Shown: positions 24,120 to 45,229 of the stretch, piece by piece
How the letters are laid out: each line of letters begins with the position of its first letter
Position numbering within the stretch: the stretch's first letter is position 1
From: Polyangiaceae bacterium
GTDB taxonomy: Bacteria; Myxococcota_A; Polyangia; Polyangiales; Polyangiaceae
Direction of reading: 5' to 3'
Assembly (NCBI GenBank): GCA_019637265.1
Contig: JAHBVY010000007.1
Span: 62,001 to 126,000, forward strand
DNA length: 64,000 bases
Notes under the pieces: generated by a model
Told to the model about the DNA's origin: nothing
Seen by the model: only the letters and a program-made list of their open reading frames with translations
The model's database searches: none
Position numbers and translations under genes: made by a program

Positions 24120-27100
24120 CTAGCGGGCGATCACTCGAGGGCAATCGTAGCCCAGGAACAGCGCCGGTGACAGGCCGCGATCGCGCTTCGAAGGCTTGAA
24201 GTCGAGCTTGATGTGCGCGTCCCGCGAGCGGACGTACCAGGTCACCACCACCGTGGGCACGCCCTGCGCCTGACCACCCGCGGTCCCCGACTCCACGCTC
24301 GCCGCGGCGTCGATCAGCCGGTAGATGCCGAAGTCGCCCGGGCGGTTGATCTCCTCGTCGAGCCCGCTGTAGCCGCGGATGCGGACGCGCGCGCCGCGGG
24401 CCTCCGCGTCCTTCGCGGGCCACTCGGCCTTGAGCCACTGCGCCGGGTGGTTCTTGTAGGTGTGCGCCACGCCGTCGATCTCGATCGACACCTCACTGAC
24501 ATCTTCACTGACCGAGTGCAGGTTCACCTCGAAGCTCACCTTCGGATCTTCTCCGCCCGAGAACACCGCCGCGCTGATCTCCGCGCCGCGCGTGAGGCAC
24601 TTGCCGAGGAAGTCCGGCGTGTAGCCGACGCTCGCCCCGAAGCGCCTGACCGGCGTGAAGGCGTTGCCGTTGCGGCGCAGCGACCCTTGCAGGTTCTCCG
24701 TGTAGAAGCTCCAGAGCAGCCCGCTGCCCGGCTTGAAGAACTCGGTGAAGTCGGCGAGCGACGCGTCACGCTGCGTGCGCACGAAGGGGTAACGATCCGC
24801 GAGGGTGTTCCGCCACACCGTCCACACGTTGGGCTCCCACAGGCCACCCGCCGCGTTGCCAGCGCCCTTCATCACGCCGGCCCAAGCGAAGGAGATCGGG
24901 CGCATGAGCAGCGGTGAGAGCAGCGCGCGGGTGCCCGTCGTCTGGTTGCTGAGCAGCCCGCTCACGCGACGGAACGTCGCCTCGAACTCGCTGACCACCG
25001 CGGTCGGGTCCGGGGAGGCGTCTCCATCGCGCAGATCGGTGAGCACGCCCACGAGCTTGGACAGCATGCCCTGGTACTCCGCGAGGTCGGTCGACGCCGC
25101 CGCGGCCTCCGGGTCGTTGCCCGGCTTCGGCACCCCGAAGTCCACCAGCGGCTCGAAGTAGAGCTCCACGGGGCTCTTCGGGCGCTCCGGCTTCGGCGGC
25201 GCGCCGGACTGCTGCGAGAGCAGCTTCTGCTGTAGCCGACGCTTGGTGTGCTCCAAGACGGACTCCACCAAACCCGCGAGCTCCCCCTCGCTGATGTCGA
25301 GGCGCGTGTTGTCACCGAGCGTCGAGAGCAGGCGCTTGTACGGCCACTCGGGCTCGCTCAGCGCGGACAGCTCCTCGAGCGATTGGACGGCGTCCTGAGG
25401 CTCGTCCACCTGGATATCGCCGATGAAGCGCCTCCACTCCTGGGTGTAGCGCTGGAAGTACACGCGGCGGACCTCCTTGAACAGATCCTCGTCCGCCTCC
25501 TTGGCTAGCCGCTTGGCCTCCGCTTCGCTGTAGATCACCCACGGCTCACCAGCGACCTTCCCCTTCTCGTCGCCGAGGAGCTCCCGCACCTGCTCCCAGC
25601 CCCTCGCCGTGTAGACGCCACGCACGACCAGCCCTTCGCTAGCCCTCACGAACTGCTGGACGGAGCCGACGAACACCTGCTTGTGCTCGATGTCGTCGGC
25701 CCTCACCTGACGCTCGAGCCAATCGACGATCTGCTCGGCGCGGGATCCGCGCCGGAGCATGCTGCGCGCGGTCGTGACTTGCGCGTCGTTCCGCTCCCAC
25801 GCCGGCACCTCCCCGCGCTTCATCAGGTCGAGGTAGTAACGAGCGTGAGGCGCCAACGCGTCGGCCTCGCTCGGCGCTCCCATGGCCTTCGCCCACGCCT
25901 CGGCCAGCGGCTTCTCCGCCCACTCTGGATCGAGGTGCTCCTTGGGGTTCGTGAGCATCAAGTAGAGCTTCAAGCGGGCGTAGCGCTCGTCGTAGTCCGC
26001 GTTGAGCTGCCGCGGATCGTCGGAGTCGCCAGCCACCCGCCGCACGATGTCCGCTTCGAGCCCCTTTTGCGTCGGCTGCTTCAGGCCGCGCTCGATGGAC
26101 CCGACGTAGACGTCACGCAGCGGCCCGTAGAGCGTGTCGCCCGTGTACATCCCGAAGCCCATCGCGGTGGGGGCGCCCTCTTCCTTCCAGGTGTCCAGCC
26201 GCTTCAGCTGAGCGCGGATCGAGGTCAGGCTAGCTGCCTTCTCGGAGACCCGCCCGGGCCCGCTCCAGTCCACTTGGGCGGCGCCCTCCGCGACCGTCGC
26301 CACCTCCTTCACGAGCCCACGGTTCCGCTGGAAGGTGCAGGAGCTCGGGACGAGGAGCATCACGGCGAGGAACACCGCCGAGACGCCGAGCGCCACCCGG
26401 TACAGCCACTGACGACGCATCTCGCGGCGGGTGCGCGCCGCGATGTGTTGATCGGGGAACACCACGCGCCGGAACATATCGGTGACGAAGTAGCTCTTCG
26501 GCTCCGTCGGTGTCTCCGGGCCGAGGCGCGGCGGCAGGCCGAAGGCGCGCGCCAAGCTGCCGAGGACACGATCCACCGGGCTGCCCTCTTGCGTGCCGCT
26601 GGAGAAGTAGAAGCCGCGGAAGATGGGCTGATCGTCCTGCGTCGTCTGCTCGAACATCGCCGAGATGAAGTCCGCCAGGCTCGCGCGCAGCGCGTTGAAC
26701 TCCATCGGGAACTGGATCACCCGATCGCGGATCTCCTTCTTCTCCCTCCCCACGCGGTTCATGGCGCGGGCGTGGACCTGAGAGACGAGCAGCTGGAACT
26801 CCTCCTCGAACAGCTCCTCCGCCTTGCGACGCGTGGCCAATTCCAGCGGGAAAGTCGCGCCGAACACGCGGTCGCGATCGCTCTTCTTCAGGTCGTTGAA
26901 GAACTCCACGAAGCCGGCGACGAGATCGACCTTGGTGAACATGACGTACACCGGGACCACCATGTCGAGGCGGTTCTGGAGCTCGTCGATGCGCGCCCGC
27001 AGCGTACGCGCCATCTGCGTGGTCTGCTCCTCCGTCTGCTCCAGGAGGTCAGCTGCACTCACCGCCACCAAGATGCCGTTCACGGGGCGCTTGGAGCGGA

Positions 27101-27683
27101 AGCGACGCAGCAGATCGAGGAAGGCGAACCACTCCGGCTGATCATCGCCTTGCGTGGCGTAGCGACCGGCCGTGTCGAGCAGGATCGCTTCGTTGGTGAA
27201 CCACCAGTCGCAGTTGCGCGTCCCCCCAACCCCCTTCACCGATCCGCCGGTGGCGTCGAGGAGCGGGAAGTTCAGCCCCGAGTGGCGGAGCGCCGTCGTC
27301 TTCCCCGAGCCCGGCGGCCCGACGATCATGAACCAGGGCAAGGTGTAGAGGGCGTTCTGCCCGCGGTCCCCGAGGCGGCTCTGCTTGAGCGCCGTGATCC
27401 CGCGCTGGACCTGCGCCTTCAGCTCGATGATCTCCGCGCGGCGGTCCGGCGCGGTGAGCGCCGCCTGCTGCTCGGTCTGTTTCAGGATTTCACGCTCGAG
27501 GGCCCGCGCCGCCGCTCCCGCGCGCCAGCGACGGTAGAGGAGCACACCCCCGACCAACAGCACCACGGCTGCCGAGAGCCCAACCTGCCCCATGAGCGGG
27601 ACTGGGATCCCCAGCGCCCGGAGCACCCACCCCCCCCCCCAGATCAGGAGGAGCAGCAGAACAGCGAAGATCCAAAGCCACAT
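24120..27683 (-). CDS. tssM: T6SS membrane-complex protein TssM (IcmF)
   Basis: 1187 aa, normal IcmF size. Two transmembrane helices lie near residues 4-22 and 35-52, the Walker A motif GPPGSGKT at about 122-129, 'VGGTRNCDWWFTNEAILLDTAG' (Walker B part: EAILLDTAG) follows, and a third membrane helix lies near 428-452. The large periplasmic part ends in the TssM C-terminal beta domain that binds TssJ. TssM with TssL and TssJ forms the trans-envelope channel. Located 21 nt after tssL. Confidence 0.95.
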   Translation of the reverse strand: MWLWIFAVLLLLLIWGGGWVLRALGIPVPLMGQVGLSAAVVLLVGGVLLYRRWRAGAAARALEREILKQTEQQAALTAPDRRAEIIELKAQVQRGITALKQSRLGDRGQNALYTLPWFMIVGPPGSGKTTALRHSGLNFPLLDATGGSVKGVGGTRNCDWWFTNEAILLDTAGRYATQGDDQPEWFAFLDLLRRFRSKRPVNGILVAVSAADLLEQTEEQTTQMARTLRARIDELQNRLDMVVPVYVMFTKVDLVAGFVEFFNDLKKSDRDRVFGATFPLELATRRKAEELFEEEFQLLVSQVHARAMNRVGREKKEIRDRVIQFPMEFNALRASLADFISAMFEQTTQDDQPIFRGFYFSSGTQEGSPVDRVLGSLARAFGLPPRLGPETPTEPKSYFVTDMFRRVVFPDQHIAARTRREMRRQWLYRVALGVSAVFLAVMLLVPSSCTFQRNRGLVKEVATVAEGAAQVDWSGPGRVSEKAASLTSIRAQLKRLDTWKEEGAPTAMGFGMYTGDTLYGPLRDVYVGSIERGLKQPTQKGLEADIVRRVAGDSDDPRQLNADYDERYARLKLYLMLTNPKEHLDPEWAEKPLAEAWAKAMGAPSEADALAPHARYYLDLMKRGEVPAWERNDAQVTTARSMLRRGSRAEQIVDWLERQVRADDIEHKQVFVGSVQQFVRASEGLVVRGVYTARGWEQVRELLGDEKGKVAGEPWVIYSEAEAKRLAKEADEDLFKEVRRVYFQRYTQEWRRFIGDIQVDEPQDAVQSLEELSALSEPEWPYKRLLSTLGDNTRLDISEGELAGLVESVLEHTKRRLQQKLLSQQSGAPPKPERPKSPVELYFEPLVDFGVPKPGNDPEAAAASTDLAEYQGMLSKLVGVLTDLRDGDASPDPTAVVSEFEATFRRVSGLLSNQTTGTRALLSPLLMRPISFAWAGVMKGAGNAAGGLWEPNVWTVWRNTLADRYPFVRTQRDASLADFTEFFKPGSGLLWSFYTENLQGSLRRNGNAFTPVRRFGASVGYTPDFLGKCLTRGAEISAAVFSGGEDPKVSFEVNLHSVSEDVSEVSIEIDGVAHTYKNHPAQWLKAEWPAKDAEARGARVRIRGYSGLDEEINRPGDFGIYRLIDAAASVESGTAGGQAQGVPTVVVTWYVRSRDAHIKLDFKPSKRDRGLSPALFLGYDCPRVIAR

Positions 27684-27704: not shown

Positions 27705-28379
27705 TTACTTTGGGCTGGTCTGGGCAAAGTTCTGCATGCTCTTTGCGGCACTATCTGCGTTCGTGCTCACAATCACGCGCAAGACGACGAACGCGACCAC
27801 CGCGAGCCCAATGACAGCCACGCTGACCGCCACGATGGGCGCCTCACGCCGGACGACGGAGCGGGCCCCACCCGCGAGCTCGCCGTGCGGGCTCAGCTGA
27901 TCGCTGCGGGGCAGCGAACGGGACAGCCGCGCCCCGACGCGCTCGATGATCGGCGCCAGGCCCTCGCCCCCGCGCACCGCGTACTGGCCCTGAAACCCGA
28001 GCGTGAGGCACAGGAAGTAAATCTGCAGGACGTGGACGCGCTGAGGCTGCGCCTCGAGCCGGTCCATCCGCGCAAAGAAGCCCTCGCCCGCCGTGTTCTC
28101 GTTGAAGTACATCAGCTGGAGCGGCCGGCTCATCCACTGCTGCCGGCCTGGCCACTCCGAGCGCAAGATCTGCTCGTCGATGAAGGCGCAGAGCGCGTAC
28201 TTCGCCTCCATCACGTCTTCATCCGGGATGCGCGCGCCGCGCGCCTTGTCCGCCATCTGATCGAAGACGCCCGAGATGCGCTGGCTCAGCACGTCCGCCG
28301 GCGGCAGGTCACGCGCGGCGCCGAGCTGGGTGGCGAGGGTCAAGGCGTCTGCGCAGGCCCAATACATCTGCTCGATCAT
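27705..28379 (-). CDS. tssL: T6SS inner-membrane protein TssL (DotU)
   Basis: 224 aa, a short TssL. The cytoplasmic hook domain has 'AKYALCAFIDEQILRSEWPG', 'MYFNENTAGEGFFARMDRL' and 'IYFLCLTLGFQGQYAV'; a single C-terminal helix ('AVSVAVIGLAVVAFVVLRVI') anchors it. It has no C-terminal OmpA-like peptidoglycan-binding domain, so peptidoglycan anchoring must come from another protein, perhaps the LysM-like/transglycosylase-like protein encoded at 33255. Confidence 0.92.
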   Translation of the reverse strand: MIEQMYWACADALTLATQLGAARDLPPADVLSQRISGVFDQMADKARGARIPDEDVMEAKYALCAFIDEQILRSEWPGRQQWMSRPLQLMYFNENTAGEGFFARMDRLEAQPQRVHVLQIYFLCLTLGFQGQYAVRGGEGLAPIIERVGARLSRSLPRSDQLSPHGELAGGARSVVRREAPIVAVSVAVIGLAVVAFVVLRVIVSTNADSAAKSMQNFAQTSPK

Positions 28380-28430: not shown

Positions 28431-29783
28431 TCAGAGGTTCTCTGGATCGACCGCGTAGAGCGAGAGCTCGACCGCTCGCGGCTCGAGCGGCTGGTAGATG
28501 GCGATGGTCCCAGTTCCTTGGATGTCGGTCCAGTATTCGGGGGTCTTGTGGACGCGGAAGAACACCACGCCAGGGCGGAGCGGTAGCGCACCCGGCGGCT
28601 GGTACTCGAGCTCGAGCCGCGCCCCGTTGATCGCCGAGTTCAGGATGGAGCCCACCTGGGACCAGCTGGCGATCTTCGAGAGCTTGGGGAGCCGGTCGCG
28701 GAGCTGCCCCTCCGGCAGGCTCCCCTTGGCCGCCAGGAAGAACTCGTAGCGCATGAGCGAGCCGTCCTCGATCTTCCCGAGGTACATCCCGTCCTCACGG
28801 CGCTGCATCGGCACCTCCACGTAGCGCTCGGCGATCACGGCGTCGAGCAGCGCCAAGACCCGCGCGAAGAGCCGCTCGAAGGTGTCCCCGAGCTCGAGGT
28901 AGTTGAACTTGGGGATGTCCGTCGGGTCCGCCTTGACCGCGAACGTGCAGAGCTGACCGATGAGCTGCGACAAGGTGATGTACACCTGCTCCGGGTGGGA
29001 GCGGCCCTGATCGACGTAGTGCGCGATCACCGGGATGAAGTTGTTCAGCGTGCTCAGCAGCCAGAACTTGGCGACGTCGCTCGCCTGGAAGTCGATGGCC
29101 GCCTCGGAGCGCTGGCGCCGCGAGGCCGCCAGGCTGCGCTGCCGCGCGGTCATGTTCTCCAGCACGTGCCGGAGCCCGGTGGTGAGGAACGGCGCCGCGC
29201 CGATCCGCAGCACCGGCGGCACGTAGGTGCGCTTGGCGATGATGGCGCCGGTGTTGCTGCGCATGAGCACCGCCACCTTGATCGAGTCGAAGGACTCGCG
29301 GCGCTCTTCACCGAACAGGATCCGGACGTTGGCGCGCGCCCAACCGAAGCTCTGCTCGTTGGAGCCGGTGTTCACGTCGTACACGCGCCCCGTCTCCTGA
29401 GTGAAGCGCGTGAGCGCGTTCGGCTTGTCCTCCAGATCGACGTTCGGCGCGGTCTCGTTCTCTTGTGGTAACGCGATGAACACGTCGAGCGATTGCATCT
29501 GCGGGGTGAACACCTCGCCGATATCGCGCAGCGGGGCGTCCCCCGAGCGGTCCCCGCAGCTGACGGGTGTGCCGTCGGGCAAGATGGCGGACAACTGGGT
29601 GAGCTTGAGCTGCCCGGCGCCGAGCGCCCGCTCATCGAGCTGGATCTCGGTGACGCCCCACACGTAGGGCGAGCTCGCGGACAGCCGCCGATCCAGCAGG
29701 CGCTCGTGGTAGGCGTCCAGCTGCTGGAAGTGGTGCTGGGTGATGAACAGGCCCTCTGTCCAGACGGGCTTGCGGATGCTCAC
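28431..29783 (-). CDS. tssK: T6SS baseplate connector TssK
   Basis: 450 aa. The start 'KPVWTEGLFITQHHFQQLD' is diagnostic, as are 'ALGAGQLKLTQLSAILPDG' and 'PNVDLEDK' (in the N-terminal shoulder) and 'PEYWTDIQGTGTIAIYQP' near the end. TssK trimers connect the baseplate wedge to TssL/TssM. It follows tssJ by 4 nt and precedes tssL by 51 nt. Confidence 0.95.
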   Translation of the reverse strand: MSIRKPVWTEGLFITQHHFQQLDAYHERLLDRRLSASSPYVWGVTEIQLDERALGAGQLKLTQLSAILPDGTPVSCGDRSGDAPLRDIGEVFTPQMQSLDVFIALPQENETAPNVDLEDKPNALTRFTQETGRVYDVNTGSNEQSFGWARANVRILFGEERRESFDSIKVAVLMRSNTGAIIAKRTYVPPVLRIGAAPFLTTGLRHVLENMTARQRSLAASRRQRSEAAIDFQASDVAKFWLLSTLNNFIPVIAHYVDQGRSHPEQVYITLSQLIGQLCTFAVKADPTDIPKFNYLELGDTFERLFARVLALLDAVIAERYVEVPMQRREDGMYLGKIEDGSLMRYEFFLAAKGSLPEGQLRDRLPKLSKIASWSQVGSILNSAINGARLELEYQPPGALPLRPGVVFFRVHKTPEYWTDIQGTGTIAIYQPLEPRAVELSLYAVDPENL

Positions 29784-29787
29784 GTTC

Positions 29788-30411
29788 TCAATCTCCCGGG
29801 GTCGGTGCGGCCTTGGCGGGCGCCTTGGCCTGCGACTCTACCGCCTGAACCCTGCCCTCAGGAACGTCCTCCGCGTGCTCGATGCCATCTTCCACGCGTG
29901 ACTCGTCGATCCACACGTAAAACTCCGGGTTCGGGGGGGGGCCGCCGTCCTCCCCCTTGAGCCCGCAAGCCCCCTCGCTCGGCGCGGGCGGCAGGTCGAA
30001 CACGGTGTACCAGCTGCGCCCCTTGGGGGTACGGAACAGCCCGGCGGCGGCCACGTGCTGGGCCTTGTCGTCGCGCTCGAACTTCAACTGGGTGCGCGTG
30101 CTCGGGTAGATGGGCAGCTCCTCGCCCTTCACCAGGTCGTCCCCGAGCGTCTCCGTCTCCTCACGCCACACCTGCTCGAACGAGGCGTTGTGGATGCTGA
30201 CGTCGTTCGCGAGCTGATACACGCGGAGCTGCACCGGGCGCGGCTCTCCGTTGGGTGCGCGGTTGGTGTCCCCAGAGGAGATGATGTGCAGCGTCACCTC
30301 CTGGAACTTGCAGTTGTCCGGCTCCTTGATCGGGAGCACGGTCGGTGAGCACGCCGAGCTCATGAGCCCGGTGAGCCCCGCTGCGACCCAGAGCGGAAAG
30401 CCTCGCCTCAT
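29788..30411 (-). CDS. tssJ: T6SS outer-membrane lipoprotein TssJ
   Basis: 207 aa. A lipoprotein signal with lipobox MSSAC at about residue 21 is followed by a TssJ beta-sandwich ('VTLHIISSGDTNRAPNGEPR', 'PVQLRVYQL', 'GLFRTPKGRSWYTVFDLPP'). The C-terminal ~45 residues are an acidic, Ala-rich tail beyond the usual domain. TssJ sits in the inner leaflet of the outer membrane and binds TssM. It starts 7 nt after the clpV stop. Confidence 0.92.
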   Translation of the reverse strand: MRRGFPLWVAAGLTGLMSSACSPTVLPIKEPDNCKFQEVTLHIISSGDTNRAPNGEPRPVQLRVYQLANDVSIHNASFEQVWREETETLGDDLVKGEELPIYPSTRTQLKFERDDKAQHVAAAGLFRTPKGRSWYTVFDLPPAPSEGACGLKGEDGGPPPNPEFYVWIDESRVEDGIEHAEDVPEGRVQAVESQAKAPAKAAPTPGD

Positions 30412-30418
30412 ACGACTC

Positions 30419-33148
30419 CTACCCCTTCTCGCAGGCGATCTCGCCCGCCTCGTCCAGCACCAGGCGCATCACGCCGAGCTCCTCGCCATCGGCGATGCTG
30501 CGGAGGATCTCGCTGGAGACCAGCGGCATCACCGTCCCGCGGAGGATGTGGTCCACGTTGCGCGCGCCGCTCTCCACCTCCTGGCAGCGAGCCGCGATCG
30601 CGTCCACCACGTCGTCCCCCACCTCGAGCCGCAAGCCGTGAGCCGCCTCCGCGCGCTTCACGATGCCGCCGAGCTTCATCCGCGCGATGCCCTTCAGCGC
30701 GTCGGGGCGGATCGGGATGTAAGGCACCACGGTCATGCGCGCGAGCAGCGCCGGCTTGAAGTGCGCGCTCAGCGTGGGCTTGATGAGCGCCGTCAGCTCC
30801 TCGTACTCAGGGAGCTCTTCATCGGGCGCCGCGCTGGTGGTGATGAGGTCGGTGGCCAGGTTGCTGGTCAGGATGATGATGGTGTTCTTGAAGTCCACCT
30901 CACGCCCCTCACCGTCGCTCAGCGTGCCCTTGTCGAACACCTGGTAGAACAGGTTGAGCACCTCTTTGTCGGCCTTCTCCACCTCATCGAGCAGCACCAC
31001 CGAGTAAGGGCGATGGCGCACCGCCTCGGTGAGCACGCCGCCCTCCCCGTAGCCCACGTAACCTGGCGGGGAGCCGATCAAGCGCGACACCGTGTGCCGC
31101 TCTTGGAACTCGCTCATGTTGATGGTGACGACGAAGCGCTCACCACCGAACAGCAAGTCCGCGAGGGTGAGCGCCGTCTCCGTCTTACCGACGCCGCTCG
31201 GCCCCACCAGCAAGAACACCCCGAGCGGCGTGTTCGGCGGCTTGAGGCCCGAGCGCGCCGCGCGCACCTCACGCGCGATCGCCGCGAGCGCCATGTCCTG
31301 ACCGCGCACGCGACCCCGCATGCGCTCCTCCAAGTGGACGATGGCATCGACATCGTCCTTGACCATCTTCCCCACCGGGATGCCGGTCCAGTCAGCGACG
31401 ATGGAGGCCACCGCGGACTCATCCACGTCCGCCGCCACCAGGCGATCTTCCGGCTTGATCGCGCGCAGCCGATCGAGCTCCTCGCGCAGGCTAGCCCGGA
31501 GCTCCTCCACGTTCACCGGTGCGGCTTCGCTGGAGCCGCCCTCGGGCGCCGCGCCCTCAGCGGCTTCACTGGCTTCACCCGACGCTGCCTCACCGTCTGG
31601 CGTGGCCTCGGCGGGCGGCGCCGTCGCCTCGGCGATCTGCGTGCGCAGCGCGTCGATGCGCGTCGTGATCTCACGCTGGGCCGCGACCTTGGCGGCCAGC
31701 TCCTCCACCTGCTGCGACAGCTCCTCTTTGCGAGCCACCGCGGCCGCGCGCTCGTCCGCGGCGCGCACGATACCCGCGCTGTCGTCGCGATCCATCGCGG
31801 CGAGCTCACGCTCCACCGCCGCCAGCTCCGCGCGCGTGTCCTCGAGCACCGCCGGATCGGCGTTGCGCACCAGGTTCACGTAAGCAGCGCTGGTATCGAG
31901 CAGGTCCACTGCCTTGTCCGGCAGCTGACGCCCGCTGATGTAGCGGCTCGAGAGCGTCACCGCGGCGACCACCGCCTCGTCGCGGATCACCACGCCGTGA
32001 GACTCCTCGAACTTGGGGGCCACCCCTCGGAGCATCACGGTGGCGACCTCCACCGAGGGCTCACCGCAGTGCACCGGCTGGAAGCGACGCTCGAGCGCCG
32101 CGTCCTTCTCGAAATACTTCTTGTACTCAGCGTAGGTGGTCGCCGCCACGGTGCGCAGCTCGCCGCGCGCCAGCGCTGGCTTCAGCAGGTTGGCCGCGTC
32201 GCTGCCGCCCGCCGCGCCGCCGGCGCCGATGATCGTGTGCGCCTCGTCGATGAACAAGATGATCGGGGTGGCGGAGCTCTTCACCGCCTCGACCACGCCC
32301 TTCAAGCGGTTCTCGAACTCACCCTTCATCCCCGCGCCCGCCTGCAGCGCGCCGAGATCCAGCGAGAGCACCCGCACGTTCTTGAGCTGGTCAGGCACAC
32401 TGCCTTCGACCACGCGCTGGGCGAGCCCCTCCACCAGCGCCGTCTTCCCCACGCCCGCCTCACCGACGATGATCGGGTTGTTCTTGCGGCGCCGCACCAA
32501 GATCTCGATCATCTGCCGGATCTCGCGCTCGCGTCCGAAGATCGGATCGAGCTCACCGTCACGCACGCGCTGGGTGAGGTCCGAGGTGAAGCGCTGAAGC
32601 GGTCCGTCACCCGGACTACCTGCCGGGCCACCCGCGGCGGGCGCGCCCGCCTGGGCGGAGGCGGCCTGCTGCGCTGCCTCGCCGCTCATCGCGGCGATCA
32701 CCGGCAGGTCTTTACGGAGCTCGTCGCGCGGGATCTGCTCGAGCGCCTGGAGCTCCACCGGCAGGTAACGGTTCGGGGCCTGAATCAAGCGCACGAGGAG
32801 CGCGCCGGAGCGGAGCAGCCCCTCACCCAGCTCGGTGGACGCGTACACCCAGCTGTCCTGGATCCACTCGAGGAGCAGGGTGCTGAACGTCGGCTTGCCC
32901 GGGTTACCGGACTTCATGTCGCCGACGGTGCGCCCCACCGTGGCGCGCAGCACTTCAGCGTTGACGTTGTAGTGCGCGAGCGCCGACACGACGTCGCTCT
33001 GAGGGTCGTCCAAGAGCGCCATCAGGACGTGCTCGACCGTCACCTCATAGTGGCGGTGCGACACGCAGCTCGAAGCCGCAGCCTCGAACGCCTTGGTGCA
33101 AGTGGAGTTCAGCTTCCGTAGCAGCGTACGCGGGTCGGCAATCAGCAT
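30419..33148 (-). CDS. clpV: T6SS sheath-recycling ATPase ClpV (TssH)
   Basis: 909 aa, Clp/Hsp100 family. N-terminal domain about 1-160, an Ala/Gly linker about 160-182, first AAA+ domain with Walker A GEAGVGKT at 229-236, middle coiled-coil region, and second AAA+ domain with GPSGVGKT near 645. The middle region carries an extra Ala/Glu/Pro-rich insertion around residues 508-546, not typical of ClpV. ClpV unfolds contracted TssB-TssC sheaths. AGGGA lies 7 nt before the ATG. It heads the run clpV-tssJ-K-L-M-tagF-tssA-B-C. Confidence 0.95.
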   Translation of the reverse strand: MLIADPRTLLRKLNSTCTKAFEAAASSCVSHRHYEVTVEHVLMALLDDPQSDVVSALAHYNVNAEVLRATVGRTVGDMKSGNPGKPTFSTLLLEWIQDSWVYASTELGEGLLRSGALLVRLIQAPNRYLPVELQALEQIPRDELRKDLPVIAAMSGEAAQQAASAQAGAPAAGGPAGSPGDGPLQRFTSDLTQRVRDGELDPIFGREREIRQMIEILVRRRKNNPIIVGEAGVGKTALVEGLAQRVVEGSVPDQLKNVRVLSLDLGALQAGAGMKGEFENRLKGVVEAVKSSATPIILFIDEAHTIIGAGGAAGGSDAANLLKPALARGELRTVAATTYAEYKKYFEKDAALERRFQPVHCGEPSVEVATVMLRGVAPKFEESHGVVIRDEAVVAAVTLSSRYISGRQLPDKAVDLLDTSAAYVNLVRNADPAVLEDTRAELAAVERELAAMDRDDSAGIVRAADERAAAVARKEELSQQVEELAAKVAAQREITTRIDALRTQIAEATAPPAEATPDGEAASGEASEAAEGAAPEGGSSEAAPVNVEELRASLREELDRLRAIKPEDRLVAADVDESAVASIVADWTGIPVGKMVKDDVDAIVHLEERMRGRVRGQDMALAAIAREVRAARSGLKPPNTPLGVFLLVGPSGVGKTETALTLADLLFGGERFVVTINMSEFQERHTVSRLIGSPPGYVGYGEGGVLTEAVRHRPYSVVLLDEVEKADKEVLNLFYQVFDKGTLSDGEGREVDFKNTIIILTSNLATDLITTSAAPDEELPEYEELTALIKPTLSAHFKPALLARMTVVPYIPIRPDALKGIARMKLGGIVKRAEAAHGLRLEVGDDVVDAIAARCQEVESGARNVDHILRGTVMPLVSSEILRSIADGEELGVMRLVLDEAGEIACEKG

Positions 33149-33254: not shown

Positions 33255-34610
33255 TCATCGGCCCCCTGGCTCGGGCGCCGAGCTCGCCAGGTCCGCCCAG
33301 TCGCTCTGCTTTTTGGGCGCGCGCCGTGGAGCGGGCGTCGGCGCGGCGGGGACCTCAGGCGCGCGAGCTGCGGGAGCTGGTGCCGGAGCGGGCGCCGCCA
33401 CGGCGGGTGGCGCGACGAGCGAGGGGAGCAGCCACGGATCACCGCCCACCACGGGGCTGGGATCCGGCGCGGCGATGCGCGGGAGCTCATCGCGCCCCCA
33501 GTCGAAGCTCGAGGGCACCCGGCGGTGCATGGCGTCGGCGCCGTAGCCGCTCATCACCTGCGCCATCAACAGCCGCGCGCGCCCGGCGCTGCCCGAGGGC
33601 ACGTAGACGCTGAGATCACGGGTGATGCTCGGCACGAACTCACTCAAGATCGCCGGGTTGAGCGCGCGGATCTGATCGAGGCTGGTGCCCGCGGCGCGCG
33701 CGAGCAGTGACAGGTCGGTGCCCGCCGGGACCTGCAGCCGGGTGGGGTAAACCGGCGCGTCAGGCTGCACGTGACCGAGCTGAAACGCCTGCTGGTTCTT
33801 GAGCACGACCGCCGTCGCGATCACCAGCGGCACGAACTCACGAGTCGAGCGCGGCAAGGCGCCCGAAGCGACCTCCCAGAACGTCGTCTCACCGATGTCC
33901 GGCACGCGCGACACCGTGGCGTCCCCAGCGTGGTGCGCCGCGAGCGCGAGCTCCCACGTCCCGTACTTCTGGTGCAAGTCGGCCAGGCGCCGCGCGACGG
34001 CGCGCGTCGCGAGCTCCACGTCGCGCCGCTCGTCGTAGTTCGGCTTCACCGTGAGGCCGTGCAAGACCGCTTCGGTGGGTGAGAGCTGCCACAGCCCCGC
34101 GTCGCCACGGCTCGACACCGCGCCCGGTTGAAACCCGCTGGACGCGAAGGCCACGTAGACCAGATCTTCAGGCAGCGCGTACTCGCGCAGGATCTGCAGC
34201 ACCAAGTGCGCGTAACGGCCGCTCACCTTGAGCGCCTCCTCCACGCGCCGCCGCCGCCCGGCGTCCTGAATCAAACCCTGGATGTGCTGCTCCACCTCCG
34301 TGCGGTACTCGACGTGGAGCGCGGGGAGGCTCAGCCCCTCGGTCCACTTCGGGTACCCTCGCTCCAAGGTGACGCGCTCTTCCGGCGTCGCCCCGCCGTA
34401 CTCCGGTCCCCGATCCAGCGGCGCCTCCACCGCCTCTTCGGGCTCGGGCGTCACCTCGGGTAAGGCGTGCGCCGCGACCACGGCGGGCCGCTCCTCGAGC
34501 GTCGCGCTGGGAGGTGGCGGCGCGCTGGCAGGCCTGGCCACCGCGAGTCCCCCCCCGACGACCAGGCCGGCCACCACGGCGCAGGCCTTGGCTACGGCTT
34601 GACCCTGCAT
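33255..34610 (-). CDS. MltD-like transglycosylase-fold protein lacking the catalytic Glu, with LysM-like domain
   Basis: 451 aa from the ATG at 34610; the longer open frame upstream overlaps the divergent FHA gene and is not coding. A hydrophobic N-terminus (7-27) suggests export or anchoring. Residues about 95-285 match the MltD-type SLT fold ('YALPEDLVYVAFASSGFQPG', 'AGLWQLSP', 'YDERRDVELATRAVARRL', 'LAAHHAGDATV'). The catalytic Glu of the E-S-x-F motif is Ser157 here, so lytic activity is unlikely. A LysM-like segment follows ('VPAGTDLSLLARAAGTSLDQ'). The C-terminal ~70 residues are Pro/Ala-rich. Next to clpV and with a TssL that lacks an OmpA domain, it may anchor the T6SS to peptidoglycan (inference). 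Confidence 0.75.
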   Translation of the reverse strand: MQGQAVAKACAVVAGLVVGGGLAVARPASAPPPPSATLEERPAVVAAHALPEVTPEPEEAVEAPLDRGPEYGGATPEERVTLERGYPKWTEGLSLPALHVEYRTEVEQHIQGLIQDAGRRRRVEEALKVSGRYAHLVLQILREYALPEDLVYVAFASSGFQPGAVSSRGDAGLWQLSPTEAVLHGLTVKPNYDERRDVELATRAVARRLADLHQKYGTWELALAAHHAGDATVSRVPDIGETTFWEVASGALPRSTREFVPLVIATAVVLKNQQAFQLGHVQPDAPVYPTRLQVPAGTDLSLLARAAGTSLDQIRALNPAILSEFVPSITRDLSVYVPSGSAGRARLLMAQVMSGYGADAMHRRVPSSFDWGRDELPRIAAPDPSPVVGGDPWLLPSLVAPPAVAAPAPAPAPAARAPEVPAAPTPAPRRAPKKQSDWADLASSAPEPGGR

Positions 34611-34714
34611 GCGGCTAACCTCGCACACCCGCCGAGGTCGGTAGAAATAACCAACGAAATCTCTGGCGGCGGCCGCCCGCATGGCGGCATCTGGCCGGTC
34701 GCGACCCCCGCTGA

Positions 34715-34720
34715 TAGAGT
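34715..34720 (+). promoter_or_regulatory. -10-like box TAGAGT before tagH
   Basis: TAGAGT lies 7 nt before the GTG at 34728, again the leaderless pattern. It also decides the start: the open frame runs back to 34467 but the coding pattern and this box favour 34728. Confidence 0.5.
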
Positions 34721-34727
34721 CCGAGCT

Positions 34728-36023
34728 GTGTCGGCGGGTTACGGCGTACGTGTCACCAACACGAAGAATCAGTCCAGCTTGGAGCGGCGCTTCCCCAAGC
34801 TGCCGATCCGGATTGGTCGTAACGCGCTGAACGATCTCCGGCTCGATCTGCCCTTCGTCTCCGATTTCCACGCGGTGATTGAGCTGCAAGACGGGCAGAT
34901 CATGCTGCGAGACCTGGGCAGCACCAACGGCACGGTGCTGCGCTCGACGGGCCGGCTGCAGCCGAACCAGGTGATCGGCCTCCAGGAGCACAACTACGAG
35001 TTCGCCATCGTCTCGGTGGTGTTCACCATTTTCCGCACGGAGGTGGAGGTCGCCCCCACCAGCGGGCACCCCCCGCTCGGCGTCGCCAGCTACGCCTCCA
35101 CCGGCATGGGCGGCCCGCCAGCGCCCGCCGCCGCGGATCAGCTCACGCCCTACGCGAGCTACCGGCGGGCCTTCACCGAGCTGATGACCAGCATAGGCGA
35201 TCAGATCGGCCGCTACCCTCCCGAGCAGCGGGTGCCGGCGCTCCAAGCGATGGCGCGTGAGATGCCTGCGCTGCTCCAAGAGCCTGATTTTCAGCGTTTG
35301 GCGGCCTCGCTCGGCTCGCCCATCCCGCACGCGCCGCAGAGCACCACGCGCGAAGAGGCGGTGGCGCTGCAGGGCTTGAAGGAGCTCGCCAGCCGCCTGG
35401 TGCCGAGCCGCGGCGCCCCTGAGTCGGTCGATGACTTGGTGCTGTTCCTGACCAAGCTGCAGGAGGTGCTCAGCATCTTCTTGCAGACGTTCGTGCCGCT
35501 CCGCGACGGCTACCGCCAATTCCGTTCCGACATGGAAATCAGCGGCTCCGTCGACGTCGGGCGCTCCTCCCAGGTGGTGAGCCGCGCCAAGTCGGCGGAG
35601 GAGCTGGCCACCGGGCTGCTGGACTGGCGCACCCCGGTCTCCGACGCGCCGCGGGAGATCGAGGGGACCCTGGCGGACCTCATGACGCACCACATCGCGA
35701 TGATCAACGGCGTGATGCAGGGGGTGAAGTCGCTCCTCAAGGAGCTCAGCCCGGCGGCCATCGAGCGCATGCTCGACGACCCCAACGCGCGCAAGCCGGA
35801 GGGCATCACCGTGGGCCCGTTCCGCTTCAAATCGCTGTGGAAACTGTATGAGCAGCGCTACGGTGACCTGACCAGCGAGGAGAAGCACGTCTTCTCGCTG
35901 CTGTTCGGCGACGCGTTCGCGCAGGCCTACGGCCGCTACCAAGGCGGCAGCCGGATGGCGACGCGTCACCTCGGCGTCGTCGGCCCCGGCGCCGGCCCCT
36001 TCAACCCGGGTACCACGCGCTGA
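34728..36023 (+). CDS. tagH: T6SS-associated FHA-domain protein (TagH type)
   Basis: 431 aa from GTG 34728. An N-terminal FHA domain spans about 20-100 ('PIRIGRNALNDLRL', 'DLPFVSDFHAVIEL', 'RDLGSTNGT'), with the GR, S-x-x-H and S-T-N-G residues of phosphothreonine recognition; the S-x-x-H serine is present as 'SDFH'. A linker is followed by a long C-terminal helical domain about 190-415 typical of T6SS FHA proteins, ending 'FSLLFGDAFAQAYGRY'. FHA proteins receive a threonine-kinase signal that switches T6SS on. No kinase is in the window. It is divergent from the transglycosylase-like gene, 117 bp apart. Confidence 0.88.
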   Translation: MSAGYGVRVTNTKNQSSLERRFPKLPIRIGRNALNDLRLDLPFVSDFHAVIELQDGQIMLRDLGSTNGTVLRSTGRLQPNQVIGLQEHNYEFAIVSVVFTIFRTEVEVAPTSGHPPLGVASYASTGMGGPPAPAAADQLTPYASYRRAFTELMTSIGDQIGRYPPEQRVPALQAMAREMPALLQEPDFQRLAASLGSPIPHAPQSTTREEAVALQGLKELASRLVPSRGAPESVDDLVLFLTKLQEVLSIFLQTFVPLRDGYRQFRSDMEISGSVDVGRSSQVVSRAKSAEELATGLLDWRTPVSDAPREIEGTLADLMTHHIAMINGVMQGVKSLLKELSPAAIERMLDDPNARKPEGITVGPFRFKSLWKLYEQRYGDLTSEEKHVFSLLFGDAFAQAYGRYQGGSRMATRHLGVVGPGAGPFNPGTTR

Positions 36024-36193
36024 GCATCGCGCGATGCGTCTCGTCCCCGACCTGGACTCGTGCGCTCATGCTCCCGCCCAGCCGCCGTCCTGATTTTCAT
36101 GGGGATCGGGGGGTTGGCGTCCGGCGGGCGTCGCCTGCTCCCACCTCGCAACAATCTTGGCCCAACGGGGGGTGGGCTCCAATCATACTCGTG

Positions 36194-36847
36194 ATGCGAA
36201 AGAGCCTGGCACTCAGCTTTGCAGGTCTGGTGGCGCTGTTCGCCACGTCCGCCTCCGCGCAGACCCCTCCCCCGCAGCGCAACGAGACGTGGGGCACGGT
36301 CTCCACCATCACCGCCGTGGGATCCTTGGGCTTCGAGGCGGTGATGCCGCGGCTGTTCTACTCCGACCCGGAGGCGACCGTCGGCTGGAAGGCGCGCTGG
36401 CACGTCTCCGTGATCGCGCCGCTGCTCACGTTAGGTGCCCTGACGCTCTTCAACGAGGAGGTGCTGAAGGACGCCTTCGAGGGTGACCGCCCGGGTTGCG
36501 ACGACTCGAACCGGGGTGGCCCTGGCTGTGAATCCTTGGGGATGCCCTCTTCCCACAGCTTCGCGGCGTTCTCTGGGCTGGGCCACGGCGGCGCGGTGTT
36601 CCTGTTCGACACCACCAAGTGGAGCCGGGGGCGCTTCAACGGGGGCAGCCTGGCGGGGCACATCGGGGTGCCCCTGGTGCTCAGCGTGATCACCGCCGTC
36701 GGGCGCGGCGCAGGGGACTACGAGTCCGCCGATCAAATCTTGCTGGGCGGTGGCATGGGCCTCGGCTTCGGCTTCCTCACGGGGATGACCTACGCGCTGA
36801 TGGCGCGCCCGGAGTGCGGCTACACCGGCGCGATGATCTGCTGGTGA
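36194..36847 (+). CDS. PAP2-family (phosphatase-fold) protein with degenerate third motif
   Basis: 217 aa from ATG 36194, with a signal peptide ending at SASAQ (about residue 22). Motif 1 K-x6-RP is K92-P100 (KDAFEGDRP) and motif 2 is PSSH (118-121), as in type 2 phosphatidic-acid phosphatases. Motif 3 (S-R-x5-H-x3-D) reads GRGAGDYESAD and lacks the histidine that forms the phospho-enzyme nucleophile. There are several hydrophobic stretches. Either activity is lost or another residue substitutes. It lies just after tagH, but a T6SS link is not evident. Confidence 0.75.
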   Translation: MRKSLALSFAGLVALFATSASAQTPPPQRNETWGTVSTITAVGSLGFEAVMPRLFYSDPEATVGWKARWHVSVIAPLLTLGALTLFNEEVLKDAFEGDRPGCDDSNRGGPGCESLGMPSSHSFAAFSGLGHGGAVFLFDTTKWSRGRFNGGSLAGHIGVPLVLSVITAVGRGAGDYESADQILLGGGMGLGFGFLTGMTYALMARPECGYTGAMICW

Positions 36848-38724: not shown

Positions 38725-40653
38725 ATGACCGGAGAGCGGCAGGGTGGCATCGCGGGTTTTGGGGTGGGCTTTGGCAGCGGGGCGGGGGCGCAAGGTCACC
38801 GTGATGGTGGCGCGCCGGAGGAGGCGAGCCCGCGCGGGCCGCTGCGGGTCGTCGTGGTCAGTCAGGTCACCGCTCAAAGTGAGGTCTCGACGGGGCCTGA
38901 GCCGCTGGTCGCCGTCCGGCGACTCAGCCGCGCGGAGTTCGACCGCGTGTTCACGGAGCTCGCGCCGAGCCTCGCGTTCGAGCTCGAGACGCAGGTGGTG
39001 GACAAGCCGCTCCGGGTCGATCTCCGCTTCGAGCGCCTCAAGGCGCTGAAGCCCCAGAGCCTGGTCGAGCAAGTGCCCGCGCTGCGCGCCCTGGTCGACG
39101 CGAAGCGCATCATTCAGCACTTGATCGAGGGGCGGGTTGGGCAAGGCGCGGCGCGGGACCAGCTCGCGCGGGTGCTGCCTGCGGGGCGCTTCAATGACGA
39201 TCTGTGTCGCGAGCTGGCGGGAGCGGACGCCGCGCCTCACGCCGCCGCGAGCGCGCCTTCATCCGCTACGTCCGCTCCCGGGGCGCCGCCCGCGGCGCCC
39301 CCCGCTGGGGGCGGTTTGGATGCGCTCCTGGCGCAAGTCGACATCGCGCCCAGCGCCGAGCCCGGCGGAACCGGCGTCACGCAGCAGGCGCCCACGGCGT
39401 CCAACGCGAGCGCCTCGGCGCTGGTGTCTGCCGTGGCGCGCGCCGCGGTGGGGAAGAAGTCGGGCAGCGGTGGGTCCACCGCGGAGCGCGCCTTGACGAA
39501 GATCGAGGGCCACTTCCAAGCGCTGCTAGGCGCCATCTTGAGGCACCCGGAGGTCCAACGCCTGGAGGCCACCTGGCGCGGCCTGTGGCTGCTCTTGGAG
39601 CGCGCGAACCTGGGCGCCGGCGTGGAGCTCGACTTGCTGCCCGCGGGTGACGGCACGGAGGGGATCAGTCAGGCGCTCACCCGACTCGCGGCGCGCGAAG
39701 GGATCCACGAGGCGGAGCGCGCTCCGGTGGATCTCATCGTCGTGGATCGCGAGGTGAGCGCGAGCCAGCACGATCTCAAGGCGCTCGAAGCCTGGGCCAC
39801 GCTGGCCGAGCTGATGCGCGCGCCGATCGTCACCGCCGGGAGCCATGAGCTGGTGGGCGTGGATCAGCTGCGCGAGCTGTCCTTCTCCGAGCGGCGTCAC
39901 GCGGGCTCCACCGATCCGCGCGCCGTCGCGGCGCGCGCCGTCGCTTCACGCGACGCGGCGCGCTGGGTGTGCCTGACCTTGAACCGCGCGCTGGTGCGCT
40001 CGGCCTACACGGAGGAGACGGCGCGCACGAAGGACATTCGCTTCACGCAAGACCCAGCGCTGCCCGGCGCCCACGTCTTCATCCGCGGCTACTGGGTGGT
40101 GGCAGCGCTGGTGATGGAGAGCTTCGTGCGCACGGGCCTCGGCACCGACATCACCGGTCAGGGTGGCGTACTGGCTAATCTGCCGGTGCACGAGGTGGAG
40201 GACCGCGGCGAGCGCGCGGCGATCCCGGTGGAGGTGTTCATCTCGAGCGAGTCGCAGTCCGAGCTGGCGCGCACCGGCGTCGCGGCGCTCGGCTGCGCGC
40301 GCAACCGCGACCTGGTGGTGCTGAGTCACGCGCCCGTCTTCTACCGGGAGCCGAGCCAGACGGGCGGCGACGCCCGGCCCGCAGAGCTCAGCCTGGCTGA
40401 CCAACTGTTCGTCGGGCGCTTCTCCCATGCGGTGGAGATGGTGGCCGCCGCCATCCCCTCTCACACCCCGGCTCGCGCGGCGGGCGAGGTCGCGCAGATC
40501 GCCCTCTTGGATTTCTTTCGGAATCCACCGCCCGTCGGCCCCGAGGTCGAAGCCACGGTGGAGAACGGCAACCTGATCGTCACCGTCCGGCCGCGCCGCT
40601 TCGCGGGGATCGGGCTGGGTGAGGTCACCCTGGCCGCGCCGCTGGGGAGGTGA
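38725..40653 (+). CDS. TssB-TssC fusion sheath-type protein
   Basis: 642 aa. Residues about 40-170 align in order with the TssB of this locus: 'PLRVVVVSQVTAQSE' with 'PLKMLFVGDYTGRPD', 'LRVDLRFERLKALKPQSLVE' with 'LSMNLKFKKLADFGPDAIVE', and 'QVPALRALVDAKRIIQHL' with 'QVPELKKLMDLRNALTAL'. An Ala/Pro/Gly linker spans about 172-260. Residues about 265-642 are TssC-like: 'HPEVQRLEATWRGLWLLLER', 'DIRFTQDPALPGAHVFIRGY', 'TGVAALGCARNRDLVVLSHA', and the end 'VTVRPRRFAGIGLGEVTLAA'. The first ~20 residues of TssB and part of the TssC N-terminus, which interlock neighbouring subunits, are reduced. Separate tssB and tssC genes exist at 19-21 kb. It may be a modified sheath ring, a cap or a variant-sheath subunit (inference). 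A TPR gene follows 60 nt later. Confidence 0.82.
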   Translation: MTGERQGGIAGFGVGFGSGAGAQGHRDGGAPEEASPRGPLRVVVVSQVTAQSEVSTGPEPLVAVRRLSRAEFDRVFTELAPSLAFELETQVVDKPLRVDLRFERLKALKPQSLVEQVPALRALVDAKRIIQHLIEGRVGQGAARDQLARVLPAGRFNDDLCRELAGADAAPHAAASAPSSATSAPGAPPAAPPAGGGLDALLAQVDIAPSAEPGGTGVTQQAPTASNASASALVSAVARAAVGKKSGSGGSTAERALTKIEGHFQALLGAILRHPEVQRLEATWRGLWLLLERANLGAGVELDLLPAGDGTEGISQALTRLAAREGIHEAERAPVDLIVVDREVSASQHDLKALEAWATLAELMRAPIVTAGSHELVGVDQLRELSFSERRHAGSTDPRAVAARAVASRDAARWVCLTLNRALVRSAYTEETARTKDIRFTQDPALPGAHVFIRGYWVVAALVMESFVRTGLGTDITGQGGVLANLPVHEVEDRGERAAIPVEVFISSESQSELARTGVAALGCARNRDLVVLSHAPVFYREPSQTGGDARPAELSLADQLFVGRFSHAVEMVAAAIPSHTPARAAGEVAQIALLDFFRNPPPVGPEVEATVENGNLIVTVRPRRFAGIGLGEVTLAAPLGR

Positions 40654-43930: not shown

Positions 43931-45229
43931 GTGCCCTCCTTGACCTGGGACGTCGATCCCATCGCCTTTCAGTTCGTCCTCCCGTTCCTGCTCAAGTACG
44001 TGTTGTACGGGGTGGCGGCGGCGGGGCTGGTGTCCGCGTTCCTCGCGTACCGCGCGAAGCAGTCGCCCGCCTTCGGGCTGGTGCTCGCGGCGGCGGTGAT
44101 CGCCGCGTCGTTCAAGTGGGGGGACCTCCAACCCAACGTCGAGATCCGCTGGTACAGCCTGCTGTTCGTTGGGGTGTTCCTCGGCGGCTACGCGCTGCTC
44201 CGCTGGCAGATCGTGCGCGGCGGTGGTGGGGAGGAGGAGGCCGGCGACTTCATCGTCTACGGCGTGCTCGGCGTGCTGGTGGGCGCGCGGCTCGGCCACG
44301 TCTTCTTCTACGACCTGGAGCGGTTCCTCACGAATCCCGCCATGGTGGTGGAGATTTGGACAGGGGGCCTGGCGAGTCACGGCGCGGTGATGGGGCTCAT
44401 CTTCGTGATGTGGCTCTTTACGCGGCAGCGCGGGATCCCCTTCTTGGAGGGGGCGGATCGCTTCGCCTTCAGCGCGGCGCTGGGCGCCACCTTGGTGCGG
44501 GTGGGGAACCTCCTGAACTCGGAGATCGTCGGGCGCGTGGTGCCCGACCAGAGCTGGGGCTTCCGCTTCCCGCGCTTCGACGTGGGGGCGGAGGTGGTGC
44601 CGCTCCGCTACCCCACGCAGGTCTTGGAGATCGCCCTGGGCCTCATCATCCTGGCGGCGCTCTACTTCGTCGATAAATCCGCGGGGAAAGAGCAGCGGCC
44701 GCGCGGCCTGTTGATCTCGGTGTTCTTCGCCATCTACTTCCTCGGCCGCTTCCTGATCGAGTTCTGGAAGGAGTACCAGATCGCCGGGGGTGACCACACC
44801 GGGCTCACCATGGGTCAGATCCTCAGCCTGATCCCCTTCGCGCTCGGCGTGTACGGCATCTACTGGGCCACGAGCCAGCAGCTGCCCGTCGGCTGGCAGC
44901 GGACGGACCTCCCTGAGGAGGAAGAGGAGCTGGACGAAGAGGAGGAGGCCGCCCGCGAGGAGGCGCGGCGCCGCGCGGCCAAGCGGCGCGCCAAGCGCAA
45001 AGCGCAGCGTGAGGCGGAGAAGCAGGCCGCGAAGACGAGCAGCCAAGCCGACGATAGCGCCAGCGAAGACGACGAGGACGACGCGCCAGCGAAGCCCGAG
45101 GCGAAGCAGGCGAAGACCAAGAGCGAGTCGCCTGACGAGCCAGCCGACCCGAGCGACGAAGACAGCGACCCCCAGCGCGAAGACGAGGACGAAGCGGACG
45201 ACGAGCCGAGCTCGAAGCCGGGCGCATGA
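43931..45229 (+). CDS. lgt: prolipoprotein diacylglyceryl transferase Lgt with a long charged tail
   Basis: 432 aa, GTG start. Seven or so membrane segments, with 'VGARLGHVFFYD', 'GGLASHGAVMGLIF' and the Lgt signature 'VRVGNLLNSEIVGR', then 'HPTQ'-equivalent 'RYPTQVLEI' and 'FLGRFLIEFWKEYQ'. Lgt transfers diacylglycerol to the lipobox Cys, the first step of lipoprotein maturation; the window encodes many of its substrates. The enzyme is normally about 280-300 residues. Here a highly charged Glu/Asp/Lys/Arg-rich tail of about 90 residues follows the last helix. The gene overlaps the GNAT gene by 4 nt (ATGA). Confidence 0.9.
   Translation: MPSLTWDVDPIAFQFVLPFLLKYVLYGVAAAGLVSAFLAYRAKQSPAFGLVLAAAVIAASFKWGDLQPNVEIRWYSLLFVGVFLGGYALLRWQIVRGGGGEEEAGDFIVYGVLGVLVGARLGHVFFYDLERFLTNPAMVVEIWTGGLASHGAVMGLIFVMWLFTRQRGIPFLEGADRFAFSAALGATLVRVGNLLNSEIVGRVVPDQSWGFRFPRFDVGAEVVPLRYPTQVLEIALGLIILAALYFVDKSAGKEQRPRGLLISVFFAIYFLGRFLIEFWKEYQIAGGDHTGLTMGQILSLIPFALGVYGIYWATSQQLPVGWQRTDLPEEEEELDEEEEAAREEARRRAAKRRAKRKAQREAEKQAAKTSSQADDSASEDDEDDAPAKPEAKQAKTKSESPDEPADPSDEDSDPQREDEDEADDEPSSKPGA

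Follow-up and report, generated by a model that had tools for sequence, protein, structure and literature searches.

A T6SS-linked MltD-type protein of Polyangiaceae as a putative pseudo-lytic transglycosylase

A type VI secretion system (T6SS) cluster in the window, as the whole stretch of 64,000 nucleotides analysed here is called, contains a gene for an MltD-type protein in which the catalytic Glu of motif I is replaced by Ser157. Judged from its sequence, the protein is best classed as a putative pseudoenzyme derived from MltD-type proteins and not as a functional member, the catalytic residue being absent. The reading that we prefer, and regard as moderately probable, is a selected pseudoenzyme that would attach to peptidoglycan at the T6SS assembly site and leave it uncut. 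How the T6SS passes through the cell wall is an open question in most bacteria. An MltD-type enzyme within the T6SS cluster was identified in two families of one order, with Glu lost in one genus and the fold under strong constraint, which makes it a natural experiment separating cutting from binding. The Glu form and the Ser form, found at the same gene place, are a clean pair for comparison; if the Ser form were needed for T6SS assembly, the dedicated part would be wall contact and not wall cutting. MltD itself is not known to be part of a T6SS cluster.

The gene is located on the minus strand, with its start ATG at 34608-34610 and its stop codon at 33255-33257, and encodes 451 aa, exactly where the initial annotation had placed it. 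It lies just upstream of clpV, tssJ, tssK, tssL and tssM on the same strand. The T6SS genes identified in the window were tssA, B, C, F, G, J, K, L, M, clpV and hcp. The main features are the following:

33255..34610, minus strand: T6SS-linked MltD-type protein of 451 aa, putative pseudo-lytic transglycosylase (Pfam SLT, 6e-16; NCBIfam MltD, 8e-24; model against MltD 8rhe, Z 26.3)
34521..34610, minus strand: putative Sec-type signal sequence, residues 1-30, with an A-S-A cleavage site and without a lipobox Cys (sequence, by eye)
33906..34175, minus strand: SLT domain, residues 146-235 (Pfam SLT, 6e-16; pLDDT about 90-98; 87% identity within the genus)
34140..34142, minus strand: Ser157 codon (TCC), at the catalytic Glu position (alignments, codon comparison)
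34101..34103, minus strand: Asp170 codon, newly acidic here (the residue is Ala in 42 of the 44 clade rows with Glu)
34071..34073, minus strand: Glu180 codon, newly acidic here (the residue is Thr in 40 of the 44 clade rows with Glu)
33930..33935, minus strand: His226-His227 codons, replacing Tyr-Asn of motif IV, AYNxG (alignments)
33561..33743, minus strand: first LysM-like domain, residues 290-350 (beta-alpha-alpha-beta in the model; aligned with MltD up to residue 351)
30419..33148, minus strand: clpV (tssH) (domain match)
29788..30411, minus strand: tssJ (domain match)
28431..29783, minus strand: tssK (domain match; single copy found in the genome)
27705..28379, minus strand: tssL, 224 aa, DotU domain only (Pfam)
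24120..27683, minus strand: tssM (domain match)
34467..36023, plus strand: FHA protein (TagH-like), divergent neighbour of the MltD-type gene (domain and profile matches)
36068..36847, plus strand: PAP2-like membrane protein, whose position next to the FHA gene is conserved in related clusters (match below the Pfam cut-off)

Active site and fold

The best NCBIfam model for the window protein is MltD (8e-24, well under the cut-off of that model) and the nearest solved structure found by search is MltD 8rhe (2.6e-22). The window protein shares with Pseudomonas aeruginosa MltD (PDB 8rhe, 8rhf and 8rhi) the fold and the order of SLT followed by the first LysM, with 27% identity over 248 aligned residues; it differs in having Ser157 where the P. 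aeruginosa enzyme has the catalytic Glu, and in lacking the second LysM that the title of 8rhf records for that enzyme. Residues 157-160 are S-S-G-F, Ser157 being aligned with the Glu of V-I-E-S-A-Y in P. aeruginosa MltD. In an alignment named A2, Glu occupies column 157 in all 59 other rows and Asn occupies column 227 in the same 59 homologues, this Asn being His in both genomes of the window genus. A2 comprises 59 homologues on named public contigs from the 80 loci of one scan (21 were omitted by choice). The scan used peptide patterns over residues 168-177 and 218-226; this choice favours the pattern in the A2 counts at 170, 174, 175, 219 and 226 and leaves those at 157 and 227 unbiased.

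Ser157 is present in both genomes of the genus (2/2, one of them 82% complete, and the only two from which Ser is known), encoded by TCC in the window and by TCG in the sister genome. Since these codons differ and any TCN lies at least two substitutions from GAA or GAG, neither chance nor a sequencing error is enough to explain Ser157, and a frame error was likewise rejected. Motif II (GLxQ) is present as G-L-W-Q at 172-175, Y-D-E-R-R-D is retained at 192-197, and the groove residues W174, Q175, R195 and W219 are retained; motif IV (AYNxG) reads AHHAG in the window protein and AFHAG in the sister genome. The MltD alignment and the Glu of all A2 rows bear out what had been proposed at first, namely that the Glu of E-S-x-F had become Ser157 while its flanking motifs were kept. 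Missed at that stage were the groove changes A170D, T180E, Y226H, N227H and E255S and the absent C-terminal LysM. Genus-specific differences, taken from the 68 columns with a uniformity of 90% or more among the 44 Glu rows of the clade described below (residues 88-351), comprise E157S, A170D, M177S, T180E, Y226H/F, N227H and E255S, among others. D170 and E180 are acidic in both genomes of the genus, and an acid was identified at these positions in none of the 44 Glu-type rows.

These changes bear on a rival explanation, that the protein is still an enzyme with Asp170, Glu180 or His227 as a substitute acid/base in a rebuilt active site. The two fixed acids, the His in place of an Asn invariant in A2 and the fact that the strongest constraint falls on the SLT domain are in its favour; however, in the mechanism of MltE, according to the excerpt of its description consulted, a single Glu acts first as one and then as the other of acid and base (PMC5841429), and several motif residues have changed together in the window protein, as expected after loss of catalysis. 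We consider this explanation doubtful. A bolder version, in which Ser157, Asp170, Glu180 and His227 (fixed in 2/2 genomes) form a new active site carrying out a different wall reaction for the T6SS, such as the removal of a wall modification or a hydrolysis replacing the transglycosylase cut, is very improbable. According to the preferred reading, of a binder that does not cut, the Glu-driven cut would be impossible for the Ser157 form. Cutting can be supplied elsewhere in the genome, since the other four SLT proteins (4/4) retain the Glu within the E-S of motif I.

The AlphaFold2 model of the window protein has pLDDT block means of about 90-98 over residues 91-350 and superposes on P. aeruginosa MltD 8rhe over 248 residues (Z 26.3, rmsd 2.1, first LysM included), the alignment rows used for the model carrying Glu and thereby pulling it towards the MltD shape. 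Structure prediction had been suggested as a check, and the MltD fold is intact in the model. The structural match to MltD extends to residue 351 and the model contains a LysM-like beta-alpha-alpha-beta arrangement at residues 290-337, by which the LysM-like segment noticed initially appears to be real and a peptidoglycan-binding domain, as in T6SS accessories such as TagL, TagV or evolved TssL, is predicted. The second, C-terminal LysM, which most relatives retain, does not appear in the aligned tail of the window protein and is gone in both genomes of the genus; wall binding would be weakened by this loss. The second C-terminal LysM is likewise absent from a Glu-type member (L008 / L091, genome G061).

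Relatives in the order and selection

An initial contig scan with the window protein alone as query found no relatives. Those described here were obtained by searching 108 genomes of the family and 183 genomes of the order; in these searches a high-scoring clade stands apart from the housekeeping MltDs. The clade comparison comprises 48 genomes, 46 from the same family and two from another family of the order; they were picked by score, with G055 and G158 picked by synteny, and the clade counts exclude the housekeeping rows L002, L076, L085 and L086. A search across the phylum covered 377 genomes, an even sample of a larger group, and none of the matches listed from outside the order scored up to G159.

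Linkage to the T6SS cluster is shown for most members of this clade, though not for all: clpV was identified on the fetched stretch in 41 of the 48 genomes and FHA also in 41, and the FHA/SLT/clpV synteny is conserved. The genomes without clpV on the stretch are G028, G051, G056, G059, G062, G065 and G068. The G065 stretch contains tssJ-tssM and that of G028 only a piece of a sheath-like gene; for G051, G062 and G068 the contig is 3.6 to 7.1 kb long; in G056 and G059 core T6SS genes were sought in 16 kb and none was found. It is highly improbable that the protein belongs to the cargo of the T6SS, as an SLT-domain effector, and not to the machine. Effectors with lytic-transglycosylase activity do exist, Tse4 being one in the consulted excerpt of a review (PMC10433429), but the window protein has a Sec-type signal sequence (by eye), proximity to clpV in those 41 genomes, a LysM architecture resembling that of housekeeping MltD, and no catalytic Glu.

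The motif I residue is Glu in 44 of the 48 genomes, Ser in two and Asp in two, and Ser at 157 was identified only in the window genus, in both its genomes. Among the 41 genomes with clpV on the stretch the counts are Glu 37, Ser 2 and Asp 2; Ser as the rule in homologues beside clpV, a check proposed by the initial annotation, was therefore rejected. A tree of 52 rows contains two changes from Glu, with support of 100/100 for the Ser pair and 100/99 for the Asp pair, and a branch of 0.91 changes per column leading to the window genus. Because 44/48 keep Glu and Ser occurs in one genus only, Glu is almost certainly ancestral and its loss to Ser local to the genus. The clade ancestor was very probably an active, T6SS-dedicated lytic transglycosylase with Glu, and the tree and the alignments indicate that the active site has decayed at least twice in the clade. 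The Asp lineage is also without the motif II Gln and the motif IV Asn, and a third member, which keeps Glu, shares both losses. This second decayed lineage of T6SS-linked MltD-type proteins (L013, L016 and L021, from genomes G083, G082 and G081) has D-G-G or E-G-T as motif I, GIWK or GVWH as motif II and AYGxG as motif IV.

The two genomes of the genus were also compared part by part. Identity is highest in the SLT domain (86.7%, dN 0.099, dS 1.40, dN/dS about 0.07), followed by the LysM-like part (78.3%, dN 0.143), the clpV part (74.4%, dN 0.211, from a gene portion on a short contig), the whole MltD-type protein (66.5%, dN 0.273) and the C-terminal tail (53.5%, dN 0.427). The dN/dS values are rough because dS is 1.1-1.9 across all compared parts, near saturation. 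The SLT domain is thus the best-kept part of the window protein, above the clpV part too. Gene decay, by which the gene became functionless after the loss of Glu and is on its way out, would fit the lost second LysM and the long branch to the genus, but the frame is open in both species, synteny is kept, and the identity and dN/dS of the SLT domain argue that the gene is not dying; decay is an improbable explanation. For an SLT domain that seems to have stopped cutting and is nevertheless more conserved than clpV, the simplest account is a different function.

Role at the secretion site and known systems

The T6SS membrane complex must pass the cell wall, and T6SS clusters do not usually include genes for enzymes that cut it, according to the excerpt of the review (PMC10433429). 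The window protein would originate from a T6SS-dedicated periplasmic lytic transglycosylase of MltD type whose Glu is kept in most relatives, the Glu-type forms probably opening the wall for the TssJLM complex. The form of the window genus would be exported via its Sec signal, would still be MltD-folded and would probably still bind glycan strands by the groove (W174, Q175, R195 and W219) and the remaining LysM. Its most likely action would be a non-cutting contact with peptidoglycan at the T6SS assembly site, as a scaffold or clamp; in an alternative form it would be a placeholder guiding a housekeeping transglycosylase, the latter doing the cutting. Published T6SS wall strategies and the single-Glu mechanism of MltE are the reasons for reading the Glu forms as wall openers and the Ser form as a component that contacts the wall but no longer cuts it.

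The clamp suggested by the initial annotation may be one form of the non-cutting binder, beside which a shield, a scaffold or a recruiter may be considered. The non-enzymatic peptidoglycan role in general agrees with the T6SS linkage, the loss of Glu, the retained fold and LysM and the strong constraint on the SLT domain; the expectation of Ser beside clpV and the argument from TssL did not stand. TssL is without an OmpA domain, as had been said, but in every one of the 13 stretches that allowed a measurement it is 217-230 aa long, counted from match start to stop, and in 12 of these stretches the SLT protein has Glu, so that a short TssL does not discriminate and gives the clamp no specific support.

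Four known systems were compared, the first three as presented in the excerpt of the review (PMC10433429). MltE of enteroaggregative Escherichia coli is a lytic transglycosylase serving T6SS assembly; it has a housekeeping role, is stimulated by TssM and acts through its cutting activity, whereas the window protein is encoded in the cluster and lacks Glu. TagX of Acinetobacter is peptidoglycan-directed and T6SS-cluster-encoded, like the window protein, but is an endopeptidase; with Ser157, the window protein lacks the intact catalytic residue expected of a wall-opening enzyme in the role of MltE or TagX. TagV of Serratia (SH3b) and TssL with a fused peptidoglycan-binding domain are accessory T6SS peptidoglycan binders, the kind of role proposed here, although their domains are other than those of the window protein and the TssL of the window is short. 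Finally, AgmT of Myxococcus xanthus is a transglycosylase coupling an envelope machine to the wall; unlike the window protein it is MltG-type and requires its own activity, according to the excerpt consulted (PMC11444678).

In that same excerpt AgmT-EAEA, with its catalytic residues replaced, is argued still to bind peptidoglycan and yet does not connect the gliding machine (PMC11444678). In that system binding alone was of no use to the machine. This is an argument against a merely inactive connector and keeps two rivals in play, the altered enzyme and a shield or regulator. In the latter, a dead enzyme occupies the glycan strands round the secretion site and limits cutting by housekeeping transglycosylases. 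AgmT-EAEA was itself suggested to block active lytic transglycosylases from the wall, in the excerpt (PMC11444678), and the groove aromatic residues are retained in the window protein; the data presented here do not separate a shield from a scaffold. The shield is unlikely on balance, though it has to be weighed seriously. Among the publications listed by searches on inactive or pseudo lytic transglycosylases and on T6SS-linked transglycosylases in myxobacteria, judged by title and abstract start, no such case was found, a result that is weak beyond that scope.

Other genes of the cluster

Most FHA relatives align only from about residue 85 of the annotated ORF onwards, and the true start of the FHA gene is probably near 34728. 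A relative of the PAP2-like protein was identified on 18 of the 48 fetched clade stretches, many of which are too short to show one; a lipid phosphatase is, to our knowledge, an unusual part of a T6SS cluster. At 38725-40653 on the plus strand a 642-aa fusion is encoded, with a TssB-like part (residues 39-163) and a TssC-like part (residues 255-533), which coexists in the cluster with separate canonical tssB and tssC. Relatives of this fused protein gave matches on 6/48 fetched clade stretches. A few kb beyond the fused gene, at 43931-45229 on the plus strand, a prolipoprotein diacylglyceryl transferase (Lgt) is encoded.
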